NCBI GenBank assembly: GCA_903905065.1
Contig: CAIVEW010000107.1
Span: 1 to 52,468, forward strand
Direction: 5' to 3'
DNA: 52,468 nt
DNA from: an uncultured Bacteroidota bacterium
GTDB lineage: Bacteria; Bacteroidota; Bacteroidia; Chitinophagales; Chitinophagaceae
Shown here: positions 39,959 through 46,305 of the stretch, in pieces
Layout of the letters: each line of letters begins with the position of its first letter
How positions within the stretch are numbered: the stretch's first letter is position 1
Notes under the pieces: model-generated
Seen by the model: the letters and a program-made list of their open reading frames with translations, nothing else
Told to the model about the DNA's origin: nothing
Databases searched by the model: none
Program-made: the position numbers and the translations under genes

Positions 39959-40351
39959 TTATTGAGAAAGGATTTTTTCTATTTGCGCTATTAACTCTGC
40001 CGCTGGGGCAATTAAAGGCGTTGTGTCTTCCTCAATAAAATAAAGCAGGTCTTCGTAATCTCCTGACTGCCTCATATCAAAGACCTCGGTGTAAAACTTA
40101 CCGCTTTCTTTACTAACGATTCCCGGTAAGACAAAATGTAATCCGAACAGTTGTATTGTTTCCGAATGTTTCCTGGATTTAATATCCCGACTCGCCAGCA
40201 AAGCACTCACAGCGTAAAAACAAGCATAGTATATTCGGTTTATTGCGGCATTATAAAATTTATTTGCAAGAAGTAGTTCTCCTTCCTTCAACGTTGTTTT
40301 AGCCCTTTCTAATTTATACGTTATAAGGTTGGCTTTCTCCGCACTATTCAT
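39959..40351 (-). CDS. HEPN domain protein of an MNT-HEPN pair
   Basis: A 130-residue all-helical HEPN (UPF0332-type) protein. The central helices read KFYNAAINRIYYACFYAVSA, and the active-site-like motif is MRQSGDYED (R-x4-Y/D form rather than R-x4-6-H). HEPN members of such pairs are often RNases that are silenced by the nucleotidyltransferase. The start overlaps the upstream MNT stop by 4 bp. As a pair they fit a type VII-like toxin-antitoxin module; toxicity here is inferred from family knowledge only. Confidence 0.85.
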   Translation of the reverse strand: MNSAEKANLITYKLERAKTTLKEGELLLANKFYNAAINRIYYACFYAVSALLASRDIKSRKHSETIQLFGLHFVLPGIVSKESGKFYTEVFDMRQSGDYEDLLYFIEEDTTPLIAPAAELIAQIEKILSQ

Positions 40352-40665
40352 AAAACAACACCCTCTCTATTTACATTTTCATAAAAAGGAGTTACCATAT
40401 GTTTCGTTCGCCAGAAATCCTTTGAATAGACTAACGTGCTAATTATTACCCCTGTTTCAAAAAAAATATCATAAAGAGGATAGGTGATTTTGATTTTATC
40501 ATCACGAGTTACTTTCTCTTTGTCTACCAAAATCAACAGGTCAATATCTGATTCTTCATTGTAGTCGCCACGCGCATAGGAACCATACAAAATAAGGGTA
40601 GCACGCGGATCACTTGCCGTTACCGACTCTTTTATCCTCTGCAATATTTGGGGCCTATCGTGCAT
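40348..40665 (-). CDS. Minimal nucleotidyltransferase (MNT)
   Basis: A 105-residue DNA polymerase beta-like nucleotidyltransferase. The signature LILYGSYARGDYNEESDIDLLILVD carries the GS dipeptide and the two metal-binding Asp of D-I-D; it exceeds no usual length for MNT proteins. In MNT-HEPN pairs this protein is the antitoxin, which modifies the HEPN partner (AMP transfer in characterised cases). It starts 41 bp after the selD stop, so it may ride on the mnmH-selD transcript. Confidence 0.88.
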   Translation of the reverse strand: MHDRPQILQRIKESVTASDPRATLILYGSYARGDYNEESDIDLLILVDKEKVTRDDKIKITYPLYDIFFETGVIISTLVYSKDFWRTKHMVTPFYENVNREGVVL

Positions 40666-41768: not shown

Positions 41769-42929
41769 CTAATTATTTTCGGCATTTATTAATTTCATGC
41801 AGTTTTCCACCGCATCTACCGCCGCACAAATTATCCTTTTCATATGGAAAGGTTCACGGACAGATATTACCCCTTGATTATTTGCGCCTGCGGGAGGATC
41901 CAAGAGTTCGCTGCGGTTCTCAATATCCTTTGCATAGAATTTATCATAGTAACAAAGCAGTATCCGGAAACAGTCTGCATAATTCCCTTCGTTCAAATAA
42001 GCGATCGCTTCTTTCGTACCTAGTCCACCAAGACGCTTCTGGATACGCAAAATACAGGCTACCAGGTCTTCTCTTTTATATTTTCCATATCCGATCGTCA
42101 GATAGTCCAGCCGCTCTTCAAAAGGTATATCGAGGAAATATAATGGCGCGTGCCTCATAGTTGCCCAAAGCGCTTCAGGAATATTTACGGAACCTATCCT
42201 CCTGCTTTCATCTTCCAGCCATATGTGGCCATCCGCCGGCACCGCTTCAGATACGGCATGCAATTTCATGGCCAGCTCGTTTTCAAACATCTCCTGCGTG
42301 GGTTGCGGTGTTTCACCAAGCGCACCAAAAGCGGAACCCTTGTGATGGGCAATTCTCTCAAGGTCTATTACTGAATGTGTATTTTTCGCAAGCTCTTTTA
42401 AGACCTCTGTCTTTCCGCTCCCCGTATAGCCCCCCAGCATCTTAAACCGATAGGGCTCTTCAAATTGCCGCAACACCCAATTGCGATAAGCCTTATACCC
42501 GCCCGCCAGTGTGTATAACTTAAAACCATATAGATCCAATAACCAGGCTACCCCCGCACTGCGCATACCACCCCTCCAGCAATGTACAAGTATAATATTA
42601 GTGCCTTTCTCAGTATTTGATGGCTTTATGGCGTTGTTTGGAGAGGTTATTTTTGTTAACGATTTGTGATTTGAAGCAATTTTTTCGGCTTCAATGACCA
42701 TATTCTTCATTTTCACGCCAAAAAAATCCAGCCCGATTTTTATCGCATCTTCCCTGCTTTGTTGTTTGTAAGCGGTGCCTACGATCTTTCGCTCTTCATC
42801 TGAAAACAGCGGCAGGCTATATGCACCTGAAATGTGCGCGTGGCAATACTCTCCGGGACTTCTAACATCTGCTACAGGCCACCGTTTCGCCAGCTCCAGG
42901 AATGCTTCAATCCCTAATTTTTCTATCAT
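41769..42929 (-). CDS. mnmH: tRNA 2-selenouridine synthase
   Basis: Replaces sulfur by selenium at the wobble uridine of some tRNAs, via a geranylated intermediate. 386 residues. An N-terminal rhodanese domain has DVRSPGEYCHAHISGAYSLP and the catalytic Cys117 in VHCWRGGMRSAG; a P-loop domain follows with GGYTGSGKTEVL (about 166-177) and LEDESRRIG. Also called selU/ybbB. The linker before the rhodanese Cys (residues 85-110, IASNHKSLTKITSPNN) is longer than in E. coli and low in complexity. It heads the run mnmH-selD-MNT-HEPN-DUF1801. Confidence 0.95.
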   Translation of the reverse strand: MIEKLGIEAFLELAKRWPVADVRSPGEYCHAHISGAYSLPLFSDEERKIVGTAYKQQSREDAIKIGLDFFGVKMKNMVIEAEKIASNHKSLTKITSPNNAIKPSNTEKGTNIILVHCWRGGMRSAGVAWLLDLYGFKLYTLAGGYKAYRNWVLRQFEEPYRFKMLGGYTGSGKTEVLKELAKNTHSVIDLERIAHHKGSAFGALGETPQPTQEMFENELAMKLHAVSEAVPADGHIWLEDESRRIGSVNIPEALWATMRHAPLYFLDIPFEERLDYLTIGYGKYKREDLVACILRIQKRLGGLGTKEAIAYLNEGNYADCFRILLCYYDKFYAKDIENRSELLDPPAGANNQGVISVREPFHMKRIICAAVDAVENCMKLINAENN

Positions 42930-43009
42930 CTATTTACTGGCTTTCAGGATTAATATTATATAAATAACAGAATTAACAAACAAATATTCGAAATTATTTC
43001 GTTAATTAG

Positions 43010-43042
43010 TTGTGAATGTCAATAAATTTTATGTACCTTTAC
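43010..43042 (+). promoter_or_regulatory. Promoter of the small-protein unit
   Basis: TTG (43010-43012) and TACCTTTA (43034-43041), 21 bp apart, near the Bacteroidota consensus. A leader of about 115 bp, almost free of G, leads to the first small ORF at 43159. Confidence 0.62.
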
Positions 43043-43158
43043 ATTAACAAGCAAACAACAACTCAATAACTAACAAACAACAAATTCAAAAAACGTGCCA
43101 AAAATTAAAACCTAAATAAAAAAAGCAAAAATCATTTCACACCCCTAAAACAAACGTT

Positions 43159-43266
43159 ATGATAACAATTGCACTCATTGCCCGCATCGTGGTTCTCTAC
43201 AACAAGAGAAAGACCGCAAAACTCGTTCCCGTTCGATCCACTTACAATCTTCAAACTAATCGTTAA
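43159..43266 (+). CDS. Small protein A (35 aa), paralogue of small protein B
   Basis: ATG at 43159 to TAA at 43266. The product starts MITIALIARIVVLY, a 14-residue hydrophobic stretch with one Arg, followed by a basic segment (NKRKTAK) and a polar tail ending LQTNR. It aligns with the next ORF over the first 18 residues: M-x-T-I-x-x-x-x-R-x-V-V-L-Y-x-K, nine identities plus six conservative changes. Four of the eight conserved non-start codons differ synonymously, which favours protein-level selection. The hydrophobic part is short for a transmembrane helix; it may be membrane-associated. The family is not recognised. Confidence 0.6.
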   Translation: MITIALIARIVVLYNKRKTAKLVPVRSTYNLQTNR

Positions 43267-43284
43267 CTGATAAAATAACATGCT

Positions 43285-43386
43285 ATGCTTACAATTTTAT
43301 TCCTTACTCGTTTTGTAGTATTGTACGTAAAGAAAAGGCAAGCTATGGCTGCCACGAAGTTAACTCCAAGTCCCATTCGCGCATAA
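43285..43386 (+). CDS. Small protein B (33 aa), paralogue of small protein A
   Basis: ATG at 43285 to TAA at 43386, 18 bp after protein A. The product starts MLTILFLTRFVVLYVKKR and continues QAMAATKLTPSPIRA. The N-terminal pattern of protein A is kept (hydrophobic stretch, Arg9, VVLY, then Lys/Arg), while the tails differ. Same transcript unit as A: one promoter upstream, one terminator downstream, no other gene between. Possible readings are a type I-like small toxin pair, small membrane-associated regulators, or signal peptides of a secretion-linked system; none can be chosen from sequence alone. Confidence 0.58.
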   Translation: MLTILFLTRFVVLYVKKRQAMAATKLTPSPIRA

Positions 43387-43464
43387 TATTAAACATATTA
43401 TTCACACACACAAAACGCCATATCATAACTATATGTAATTTCCTTTTATCGGCAACCCAACTTA

Positions 43465-43495
43465 CCCGCACTGGCCTCCAGGCGGGATTTTTATT
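43465..43495 (+). terminator. Terminator of the small-protein unit
   Basis: CCCGC, bulged A, CTGG, loop CCT, CCAG, GCGGG, then ATTTTTATTT. A 9-bp stem with a U-rich tail on the plus strand, 78 bp after small protein B. Confidence 0.85.
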
Positions 43496-43532: not shown

Positions 43533-43675
43533 TTCCCCCTTGCGCGAAGGCATGTGCGCAAGCGACCGCATGCCGCCGTAGCTTTAGCGTTGGCGCAATG
43601 GGGCTAGGGGGATGTTCAACGCGCATTATGCTACTCATTCGACCTCTCCCTCTCCCCTGCCTGCCGACAGGCAGG
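43533..43675. repeat. GC-rich repeat patch with imperfect inverted repeats
   Basis: TTCCCCCTTGCGC (43533) and GGCGCAATGGGGCTAGGGGG (from 43592) form an imperfect inverted repeat. At 43656-43675 a palindrome CCTGCCTGCC/GACAGGCAGG follows; a near copy is at 47731. No gene is supported here. Confidence 0.6.
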
Positions 43676-43723
43676 CTCGGAGTTCGCGCCAGCGAAGGAG
43701 CGCAGCTCGCGGGGTGAGCCCCC

Positions 43724-46120
43724 CTACTCCCGCATCATCTCTTCTATCACCGCCGCTATATCCTCCGCATTAGGCTTTGAAAAATAATCCCCGTCCGTTG
43801 CGTATGCCGGCCTGTGCGCTTGAGCAGTTATCGTCCTTGGTGCCACATCCAGCCATCTGAAACCACCCTGCTTCTCCATTACTTGCTGAAACATATAAGC
43901 ACTGGCGCCACCTGGCACATCCTCATCAATAAAGACAATGCGGTTGGTCTTTTTCAGCGAACCTACAATAATGTGATTAATATCGAACGGCAGCAACGTC
44001 CTTACATCTATTACCTCGCAGCTTATCCCTTCGGCGGCCAGGTAGGTGTTTATTGCATCGTCTATCACACGCAAAGTAGAGCCATAAGATACAATTGTAA
44101 CATCCGTTCCCTCCCTTACTATCTCCGGTACACCAAAGGGCACCGTGAATGTATCCAGGTTATCTGGCAGCTTCTCTTTCAGGCGGTAGCCGTTCAGGCA
44201 TTCTATCACCAGCCCCGGCTCATCGCTTTTCAGTAGGGTATTATACATACCCGCCGCCTGCACCATATTCCTCGGCACACACACATATATCCCGCGCAGG
44301 GCGTTTATGATCATCCCCATCGGCGATCCGCTATGCCATACCCCCTCCAGCCGGTGTCCTCTAGTACGCACGATCAGCGGACACTTCTGCCCTCCACGTG
44401 TGCGGTATTGCAGCGTAGCCACATCATCGCTCAGCGGTTGTAAACCATATAGCAGGTAATCCAGGTATTGTATCTCGGCTATTGGCCGCAGTCCCCGCAT
44501 AGCCAGGCCTATACCCTGCCCCATTATCGATGCTTCTCGAATGCCCGTATCGGTAATGCGCAGCGCACCATACTTCTCCTGCAGTCCGGCAAACCCCTGG
44601 TTCACATCGCCTATCTTACCCAGGTCCTCACCAAAAGCCACTACAGCCGGGTTGCTGGCGAAGATCATGTCGAAGTATTTATTCAGTATCTCATAGCCAT
44701 TCAGCACCGCCGCATCTGCATCATATTGCGCAGGCACTTCAGCCACCTTCATAGCGCTAAACCGCGACTCCGAGTGTAAATGCGAAGAGAATTTTTCTTT
44801 GTTATCAGCTTTTATATAATCATAAAATCCACGCAACGCCCTCGTTGCCTCGCCGCCTTGCGGGCTCAGTCGCAGCACCTTGCTCACCGTCATCATCACA
44901 TCCTTCCTTATCGGCTCCTTCAGGCCATTCAGTTCCTGCACCATAGCCGCTATAGCTGTGCCGTTTGCTCCTGCTTCATACACTGCCTGGTTGCAGAGCT
45001 GCGTTGCCTGCGCTATCTGCTCCTTTATTGGCACCAGGAAGTTTTCCCACGCACGCTGTTTGGCGCTGCGGGCTTCCTGCTTTGCATCTTCCTCTATGGC
45101 GGTGATTTCTTCTTCGGTAGCTATTTTATTATCCAGCACAAACTCCCGCATCTTGGCTATGCAATCCCATTCCTTCTCCCACTCCAGGCGCTCCTTGCTC
45201 TTGTACCGTTCATGCGACCCCGATGTGGAGTGCCCCTGCGGCTGCGTCATTTCCTGCACATGAAATATGGCAGGCACCTGCGTTTCGCGCACACGCGCTA
45301 TGCCCTGCTGTATAGTATCTACCAGGCTTGCATAATCCCAGCCTTTCACGGTATAAATGTTTAGACCACCTTTGCGGTCATCCCACTGCATACCCGCCAG
45401 CGCATCCGATATAGAGTTCTTGGTCGTCTGGTATTTGCGCGGTACAGAGATACCATAGCCATCGTCCCAAACAAATATGGCCAGCGGCACCTGCAGCACA
45501 CCCGCCGCATTTACGCTCTCCCAAAACAACCCCTCTGACGTAGAAGCGTCCCCTATCGTACAAAAAACAACCTCGTTTCCTTTGTCTGTAAATTTCTCAA
45601 AACCCGTATGCAGGCTCTCTATATTACGATACAGCTTGGAGGCATAAGCAAGGCCCAGCGCCCGCACCATCTGCCCCGCAGTAGGCGATATATCGCTGCT
45701 CGACTGCGGGCCCGATGTAAGGTCCTTCCATTCACCATTTTCATCCAGCCAGCGCGTGCTATAGTGCCCGTTCATCATTCGCCCTGCCGATGATGGCTCA
45801 TTCTCCGTGCTCATATCGGCATATAATTGTGCGAAGAATTTTTGTATATCGCTCATGCCCGTGGCAAACATCAGCGTCTGGTCGCGGTAGTAGCCGCTGC
45901 GTATATCCCCCGGCTTAAAACACTTGGCAGCCGCCAGTTGCGCCAGTTCCTTACCATCCCCGAAGATGCCAAACTTAGCCTTGCCTGTCAGCACTTCGCG
46001 GCGACCTATAAGGCTCGCTTCCCGGCTCGCCACCACTATCCGGTAGTCATCCAGCACCCCCTCTTTAAACTCATCAAACGATAACCTTGCAGACTTAGAA
46101 CTATTGGCTGTTAATGGCAT
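43724..46120 (-). CDS. 2-oxoacid dehydrogenase E1, fused alpha and beta subunits
   Basis: A 798-residue thiamine-diphosphate enzyme, E1 of the branched-chain or pyruvate type dehydrogenase complexes. It joins the alpha part (residues 1-400), with GDASTSEGLFWESVNAAGV as TPP-Mg site and HSTSGSHERYKSKERLEW as the phosphorylation-loop region, to the beta part, with VVAFGEDLGKIGDVNQGFAG, RGGQKCPLIVRTRG and VIDVRTLLPFD. Fused E1 chains are usual in Bacteroidota. The ATG at 46120 is preferred; another at 46144 adds eight residues. E2 and E3 genes are not adjacent. Confidence 0.9.
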   Translation of the reverse strand: MPLTANSSKSARLSFDEFKEGVLDDYRIVVASREASLIGRREVLTGKAKFGIFGDGKELAQLAAAKCFKPGDIRSGYYRDQTLMFATGMSDIQKFFAQLYADMSTENEPSSAGRMMNGHYSTRWLDENGEWKDLTSGPQSSSDISPTAGQMVRALGLAYASKLYRNIESLHTGFEKFTDKGNEVVFCTIGDASTSEGLFWESVNAAGVLQVPLAIFVWDDGYGISVPRKYQTTKNSISDALAGMQWDDRKGGLNIYTVKGWDYASLVDTIQQGIARVRETQVPAIFHVQEMTQPQGHSTSGSHERYKSKERLEWEKEWDCIAKMREFVLDNKIATEEEITAIEEDAKQEARSAKQRAWENFLVPIKEQIAQATQLCNQAVYEAGANGTAIAAMVQELNGLKEPIRKDVMMTVSKVLRLSPQGGEATRALRGFYDYIKADNKEKFSSHLHSESRFSAMKVAEVPAQYDADAAVLNGYEILNKYFDMIFASNPAVVAFGEDLGKIGDVNQGFAGLQEKYGALRITDTGIREASIMGQGIGLAMRGLRPIAEIQYLDYLLYGLQPLSDDVATLQYRTRGGQKCPLIVRTRGHRLEGVWHSGSPMGMIINALRGIYVCVPRNMVQAAGMYNTLLKSDEPGLVIECLNGYRLKEKLPDNLDTFTVPFGVPEIVREGTDVTIVSYGSTLRVIDDAINTYLAAEGISCEVIDVRTLLPFDINHIIVGSLKKTNRIVFIDEDVPGGASAYMFQQVMEKQGGFRWLDVAPRTITAQAHRPAYATDGDYFSKPNAEDIAAVIEEMMRE

Positions 46121-46305
46121 ACTCTTCGGTTTTTTTACGTACATAGATCACACATTTCACCGCTTTCATCCGTTTTCATCCGCCGCAGTTTCAACGAAGG
46201 AGGACAAACAAAAGGAAAGTAATATACAAAGATAGTTTTAAGATGGGAAATTGGGAAAAAGAGATGATTGATCACGATCCTCTTCGCAGTGCCAAATAGT
46301 AGCGG

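Follow-up and report, generated by a model that had tools for sequence, protein, structure and literature searches.

The window, i.e. the whole 52,468-nucleotide stretch of DNA analysed here, belongs to contig 107 of the 4.68-Mb genome of an uncultured Chitinophagaceae bacterium (Bacteroidota), referred to below as G000. On its plus strand, between two minus-strand genes, lies a compact unit composed of, in this order, a promoter, a leader of about 115 nt, a first open reading frame (ORF1), an 18-nt spacer, a second one (ORF2), a short 3’UTR and a terminator (Table 1). A first-pass annotation had described these elements as a Bacteroidota-type promoter, a G-poor leader, two ORFs of 35 and 33 residues and a terminator with no other gene in between. 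All are found where it had placed them, and no further gene is evident between the selU-like and E1 neighbours. The nine identities which it had counted over residues 1-18 of the two peptides (M, T, I, R, V, V, L, Y and K) are exact. Domain matches firmly identify the convergent neighbour as the E1 component of a 2-oxo acid dehydrogenase. The head-to-head neighbour is presumably selU, a name that we take from the pairing of Rhodanese and AAA domains and from a selD-like neighbour with AIRS domains.

Table 1 The peptide unit and its flanking genes, in window coordinates
Feature	Position	Strand	Basis
selU/mnmH-like gene, head-to-head flank	41769-42929	-	Rhodanese domain and sub-threshold AAA domain
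Conserved element GTTAATNANTTGTGAA, spanning the -33 TTG and sequence upstream of it	43001-43016	+	Read in 6 carrier loci including G015
Promoter TTG-N21-TACCTTTA, Bacteroidota type	43010-43041	+	42996-43045: 40/50 positions shared by three genomes
G-poor leader, conserved blocks 43076-43104 and 43130-43158	43044-43158	+	Inferred transcription start
ORF1, I-type microprotein, 35 aa	43159-43266	+	ORF reading, orthologues, Ka/Ks, paralogue tree
ORF2, L-type microprotein, 33 aa	43285-43386	+	ORF reading, orthologues, Ka/Ks, tree; predicted helix residues 2-26
Conserved 3’UTR block	43416-43438	.	21/23 positions identical in three genomes; minus strand carries promoter-like TAGTTATG
Intrinsic terminator CCCGCACTGGCCTCCAGGCGGGATTTTT	43465-43495	+	Predicted stem; stem kept in G031, loop differs
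Convergent flank: E1 of a 2-oxo acid dehydrogenase, with E1_dh fused to transketolase-type domains	43724-46144	-	E1_dh, Transket_pyr, Transketolase_C

The -7 consensus of Bacteroidota promoters is TAnnTTTG, from which the window element TACCTTTA departs at one position. The same -7 element recurs in front of the unit in G022, G026 and G033, and the promoter of G031 shows an exact TAnnTTTG with a 19-base spacer. The upstream element GTTAATNANTTGTGAA has one exact copy in its own genome and seven places at one mismatch or fewer, versus one for the reversed control; of the six other near-copies, three are not inside any frame of at least 100 aa. The leader motif at 43135-43150 recurs at four other places with 2 mismatches, versus one for the control. 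At a separate locus (L155 1350-1520, minus strand), the leader of a gene for what we take, from the start of the protein, to be an HU-like DNA-binding protein ends like the conserved block that precedes ORF1. Even when up to 3 mismatches are allowed, the terminator CCCGCACTGGCCTCCAGGCGGGATTTTT has no second copy in its genome. On its minus strand, the 3’UTR block carries a promoter-like site, TAGTTATG. This site scores in the window and in G022 and G026, although its -33 partners differ; the same scan, which also lists several other chance-like matches, gives it no score in G033 or G031. Such a site could drive an antisense RNA or selU.

The window leader has a G fraction of 0.044 (4%); four of the five carriers tested, the window included, fall between 4 and 7%, and G031 reaches 12.5%. 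Together with about 40 nt of the ORF, the window leader folds no better than its shuffles (MFE -6.2 vs -6.1), and none of the leaders tested, from five of the seven carriers, is clearly more folded than its own shuffles, including that of G031, which reaches -20.0 kcal/mol vs -19.6. The fold of the whole window transcript has a z of -1.17. A published study reports that in Bacteroidetes weak mRNA structure favours translation, that an A at position -3 is favourable and that AUG is under-represented near start codons (PMC6847099). Leaders that are weakly folded and poor in G would thus suit steady translation. The start codons of the peptides, on the other hand, look restrained by their own surroundings: a G occupies position -3 in 11 of the 13 peptide genes, an A being present only in the two single-copy genomes, G015 and G024, and in 7/13 an AUG in another frame starts at position -5 (43280-43290 in the window, with equivalents in G022, G026, G033 and G031).

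Codon-level comparisons indicate that the unit is a conserved coding sequence under purifying selection, as had been proposed for the tandem pair. Ka/Ks is 0.07-0.43 in six orthologue pairs of three close genomes, and five of these pairs, which share sequences and are not independent of each other, show a synonymous excess over randomised substitutions (p 0.0005 to 0.03). Ten of all 13 pairs run are significant, the others being G022_2 v G026_2 (p 0.21), which is the sixth of these orthologue pairs, G033_1 v G000_1 (p 0.07) and ORF1 v ORF2 (p 0.05). The synonymous differences between ORF1 and ORF2, which the first-pass annotation had read as a sign of selection, are borderline by themselves. 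Related ORFs are present in six other genomes, and no frameshifting indel separates the orthologues of the three close genomes: their one length difference, 9 nt in ORF1 of G026, keeps the frame. That the two frames are chance ORFs in an AT-rich intergenic stretch is hardly conceivable: ORFs of this length are not rare in shuffles of the stretch (about 0.36 ATG ORFs of 30-40 aa per 500 nt), but chance would not account for conservation in seven genomes, the synonymous excess and the frame-preserving length change. Among 1455 shuffled ORFs of 30-40 aa, 10 reach the hydrophobicity and charge of the peptides.

The peptides are 32-38 aa long. M1, T3, I4, R9 and Y14 are invariant in an alignment of 22 rows, as they are in one of 19 rows together with a proline in the tail. 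Each of the 13 contains a 15-residue stretch with a mean Kyte-Doolittle value of 1.65-2.29, has a single positive residue among its first 15 and carries a net charge of +4 to +6 thereafter, for an overall charge of +5 to +7; a Lys/Arg-rich tail thus follows a hydrophobic N-terminal stretch that includes Arg9. AlphaFold2, run on the 19 rows, predicts a single helix over residues 2-26, with pLDDT values of 86 for the first block, 81 for the second and below 60 for the tail, and a pTM of 0.34; single-helix models of this kind are easily over-called. The helical hydrophobic moment is low in the nine peptides for which it was calculated. At about 14 residues the hydrophobic stretch is short, and it holds an Arg, so that the helix may bind to the surface of a membrane rather than span it.

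We found the unit in seven of 35 genomes of the genus, with 13 peptide genes in total: three copies in tandem in G033, two in G000, G022, G026 and G031, and one in G015 and G024. A DNA search of the 35 genomes gave clear matches in the window, G022, G026, G033 and G031; G015 (9.3e-4) and G024 (0.028) were weak DNA matches among many chance ones and were added by a profile search, in which the next best match scored E 0.017 and has an internal stop. E1 adjoins the unit in all seven carriers and selU lies on its other side in five. Of the remaining two, G015 has a contig that begins just before the unit, and G024 shows, in the place of selU, an open frame truncated by the end of the contig, selU being on a different contig. 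In G024, matches to the upstream element were also seen before selU (L127 1-238, contig 167) and near the peptide gene on contig 193 (L070 1700-1800), the latter pointing away from the gene. A second G024 unit may be cut by contig ends.

In ten other members of the genus, E1 and selU overlap by a single base, TAATG, the stop and the start being readable in all ten. The unit has therefore probably split a coupled gene pair. E1 was found in 33 of the 35 genomes, and the E1 tree has 29 rows, with G017, G023, G025 and G021 left out. In this tree a branch separates the ten TAATG genomes from all other rows (100/99), and the seven carriers make up a single clade (99/95); being midpoint-rooted, it cannot prove that the overlapping arrangement is the older one. 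A selU tree (30 rows, six carriers) agrees with it only in part: G000, G022, G026, G033 and G031 group with G020 (91/94), and the carrier G024 pairs with the non-carrier G001 (87/87). The absence of the unit from G020 is uninformative, since only 48 nt of contig precede the selU start in that genome and its E1 was not found. The simplest history that the trees and gene order suggest is that the ancestor of the carriers gained the unit once, between E1 and selU, and inheritance since then looks vertical on the E1 tree. The unit would thus be a well-bounded, young bacterial gene family, apparently gained once inside a genus, between genes that overlap in sister lineages.

The peptide genes fall into two subtypes. 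In a paralogue tree of their first 54 nt, in which one of ten inner branches is starred, I-type and L-type genes separate at 95/94. ORF1 of G000, G022 and G026 and two genes of G033 are I-type, and each of these four genomes, i.e. all that have an I-type gene, also has the L-type. The two I-type genes of G033 pair with each other (88/92), the two L-type genes of G031 are 91% identical, with a leader block copied along with the gene, and G015 and G024 have one L-type gene each. Together, the tree groupings and the single L-type genes suggest at least three tandem duplications, one at the origin of the I-type, one in G033 and one in G031, although gene conversion could mimic duplication in the G031 pair. 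The history of the family, duplication followed by a split into two subtypes that were both retained, is thus apparently still legible in the DNA.

Samples of the family (294 genomes) and the order (396 genomes), drawn evenly and including some members of the genus, yielded no credible relative outside the genus. Six weak family matches and L056 were rejected, as none has M1, T3, I4, R9 and Y14. The match in G116/G192 is a 31-aa ATG ORF with the T8-R9 part, in another frame of an apparently longer gene. In one relative search, 70 of the 72 genomes matched were not true carriers, the weak ones being judged from the listing, as were 14 non-window matches at E 0.003-0.05, which are not credible. 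Three of the 13 peptides were scanned against family collections: Pfam and PADLOC gave no match to them, NCBIfam gave PepG1 at chance level (11.9 bits vs a cut-off of 70, E 0.13) and PHROGs one chance-level match (E 0.12). There was no relative in the PDB, none of 24 pattern matches in viral contigs was confirmed, and one peptide used as query found no relative in plasmids or phages. These searches agree with the initial view of a separate transcription unit encoding no named family, and no paper on the peptides was found among the literature matches listed. A catalogue of 5.8 billion proteins, by contrast, holds 17 close relatives (16 in the first search), all of 32-38 aa and all lacking a name or domain. 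Seven of them have exactly the sequence of a carrier peptide, and eight match none of the genomes examined; P0001 and P0014 are marked as window proteins, with slightly different letters. Relatives of the family thus sit nameless in protein catalogues.

Our leading explanation, which we put forward tentatively, is that the unit encodes clade-restricted, cationic membrane microproteins, present in 1 to 3 tandem copies, whose two subtypes act together on a membrane partner. The predicted N-terminal helix would have a hydrophobic part, residues 2-15 with Arg9 inside, that ends at a Lys/Arg cluster at about residues 16-18; beyond this comes a variable, proline-containing tail. According to the positive-inside rule, positively charged segments stay in the cytoplasm; the helix would then lie in the inner membrane with its cationic tail cytoplasmic. 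Several known bacterial single-helix microproteins act on an integral membrane partner, and the I and L subtypes may jointly do the same rather than be free toxins or secreted peptides. Against this explanation, no partner gene is linked to the unit and both neighbours are housekeeping enzymes. Of the functions initially envisaged, the sequence favours the two membrane readings, a type I-like toxin or a micro-regulator, over secretion.

In Enterobacteriaceae, hydrophobic microproteins that are confined to a lineage and evolve under purifying selection are described as common in one study (PMC11188072). Like the Entero67K set of that study, the peptides are intergenic, within 15-70 codons, hydrophobic, under purifying selection and, as most of the set are, specific to a lineage, no homologue having been detected beyond a narrow taxon; almost none of the set has a Pfam domain. 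Unlike that set, they come from Bacteroidota, have an apparent promoter and terminator of their own and were repeatedly duplicated into two subtypes (PMC11188072). By these sequence features, the unit belongs to the lineage-restricted kind of microprotein known in Enterobacteriaceae.

Tandem copies and a cationic C-terminus are equally compatible with a toxin, and the strongest alternative, though we consider it unlikely, is a type I-like toxin, in which the peptides, once made, would depolarise the membrane and would be kept silent by an RNA or by restrained initiation. The silencing RNA would perhaps be an antisense transcript from the minus strand of the 3’UTR, or read-through from E1 towards selU. 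By prediction, the peptides have the features that passages of a 2021 review list for such toxins, i.e. fewer than 60 aa, hydrophobic, alpha-helical, with a cationic C-terminal part, and the search rule that led to ZorO, tandemly duplicated small hydrophobic proteins, describes them as well (PMC8309996). In size, predicted helix, cationic C-terminal half and tandem copies they resemble ZorO, Ibs, Ldr, Fst, AapA1 and SprG1 as presented there (PMC8309996). The seemingly restrained start codons and the minus-strand promoter-like site in the conserved 3’UTR block also speak for this reading. On the other side, that site is one of several chance-like matches and fails to score in two carriers; the leaders tested, from five of the seven carriers, are not folded beyond shuffles, unlike the structured mRNAs of these toxins; no family match was obtained with the three peptides scanned, PepG1 being at chance level; no mobile context was found, and inheritance looks vertical on the E1 tree. 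According to the same passages, membrane type I toxins had been described only in Proteobacteria and Firmicutes (PMC8309996), so that a positive toxicity test would be new relative to that review. In a fuller version of the toxin reading, which we regard as doubtful, Bacteroidota would have here their first family of membrane-associated toxins of type I-like kind, with two co-retained subtypes restrained by poor starts, G at -3 and a decoy AUG at -5, and by antisense RNA from the 3’UTR or from the split E1-selU pair. Whichever membrane reading holds, the unit offers a concrete Bacteroidota microprotein for membrane or toxicity study in a phylum for which those passages report no membrane type I toxin (PMC8309996).

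It is improbable that RNA is the main product, i.e. that the transcript has two functions, its conserved untranslated blocks pairing with targets while the peptides come second. Among three genomes, the leader blocks (26/29 and 28/29 identical) and the 3’UTR block (21/23) do exceed the ORFs (76/108 and 83/102) in conservation. By eye, however, these blocks are not kept in G031, G015 and G024, where the peptides are, the coding signal is strong, and Rfam gave no match at gathering scores, a single match at E up to 1 being chance. More improbable still is a bacteriocin-like role, in which the peptides, secreted or leaderless, would act on neighbours. In length, charge and tandem order they recall garvicin KS and aureocin A70, leaderless bacteriocins made of several cationic peptides of about 30-35 aa (PMC6131525). 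The host here, however, is a Bacteroidota; the genes immediately next to the unit are E1 in 7/7 carriers and selU as well in 5/7, with no transport or immunity gene adjoining; by eye the peptides show no cleavage pattern like that of a signal peptide; and no sequence relation was found.

Two further features of the window were noted. Between the terminator and E1, at 43560-43720, lies a low-complexity palindromic stretch, similar by eye to stretches in G033 and G026, which looks like a dispersed intergenic repeat. Further away, a HEPN gene (39959-40351) and a nucleotidyltransferase gene (40348-40665) are adjacent with a 4-nt overlap, an arrangement over 39959-40665 that we take to be that of an MNT-HEPN toxin-antitoxin pair.
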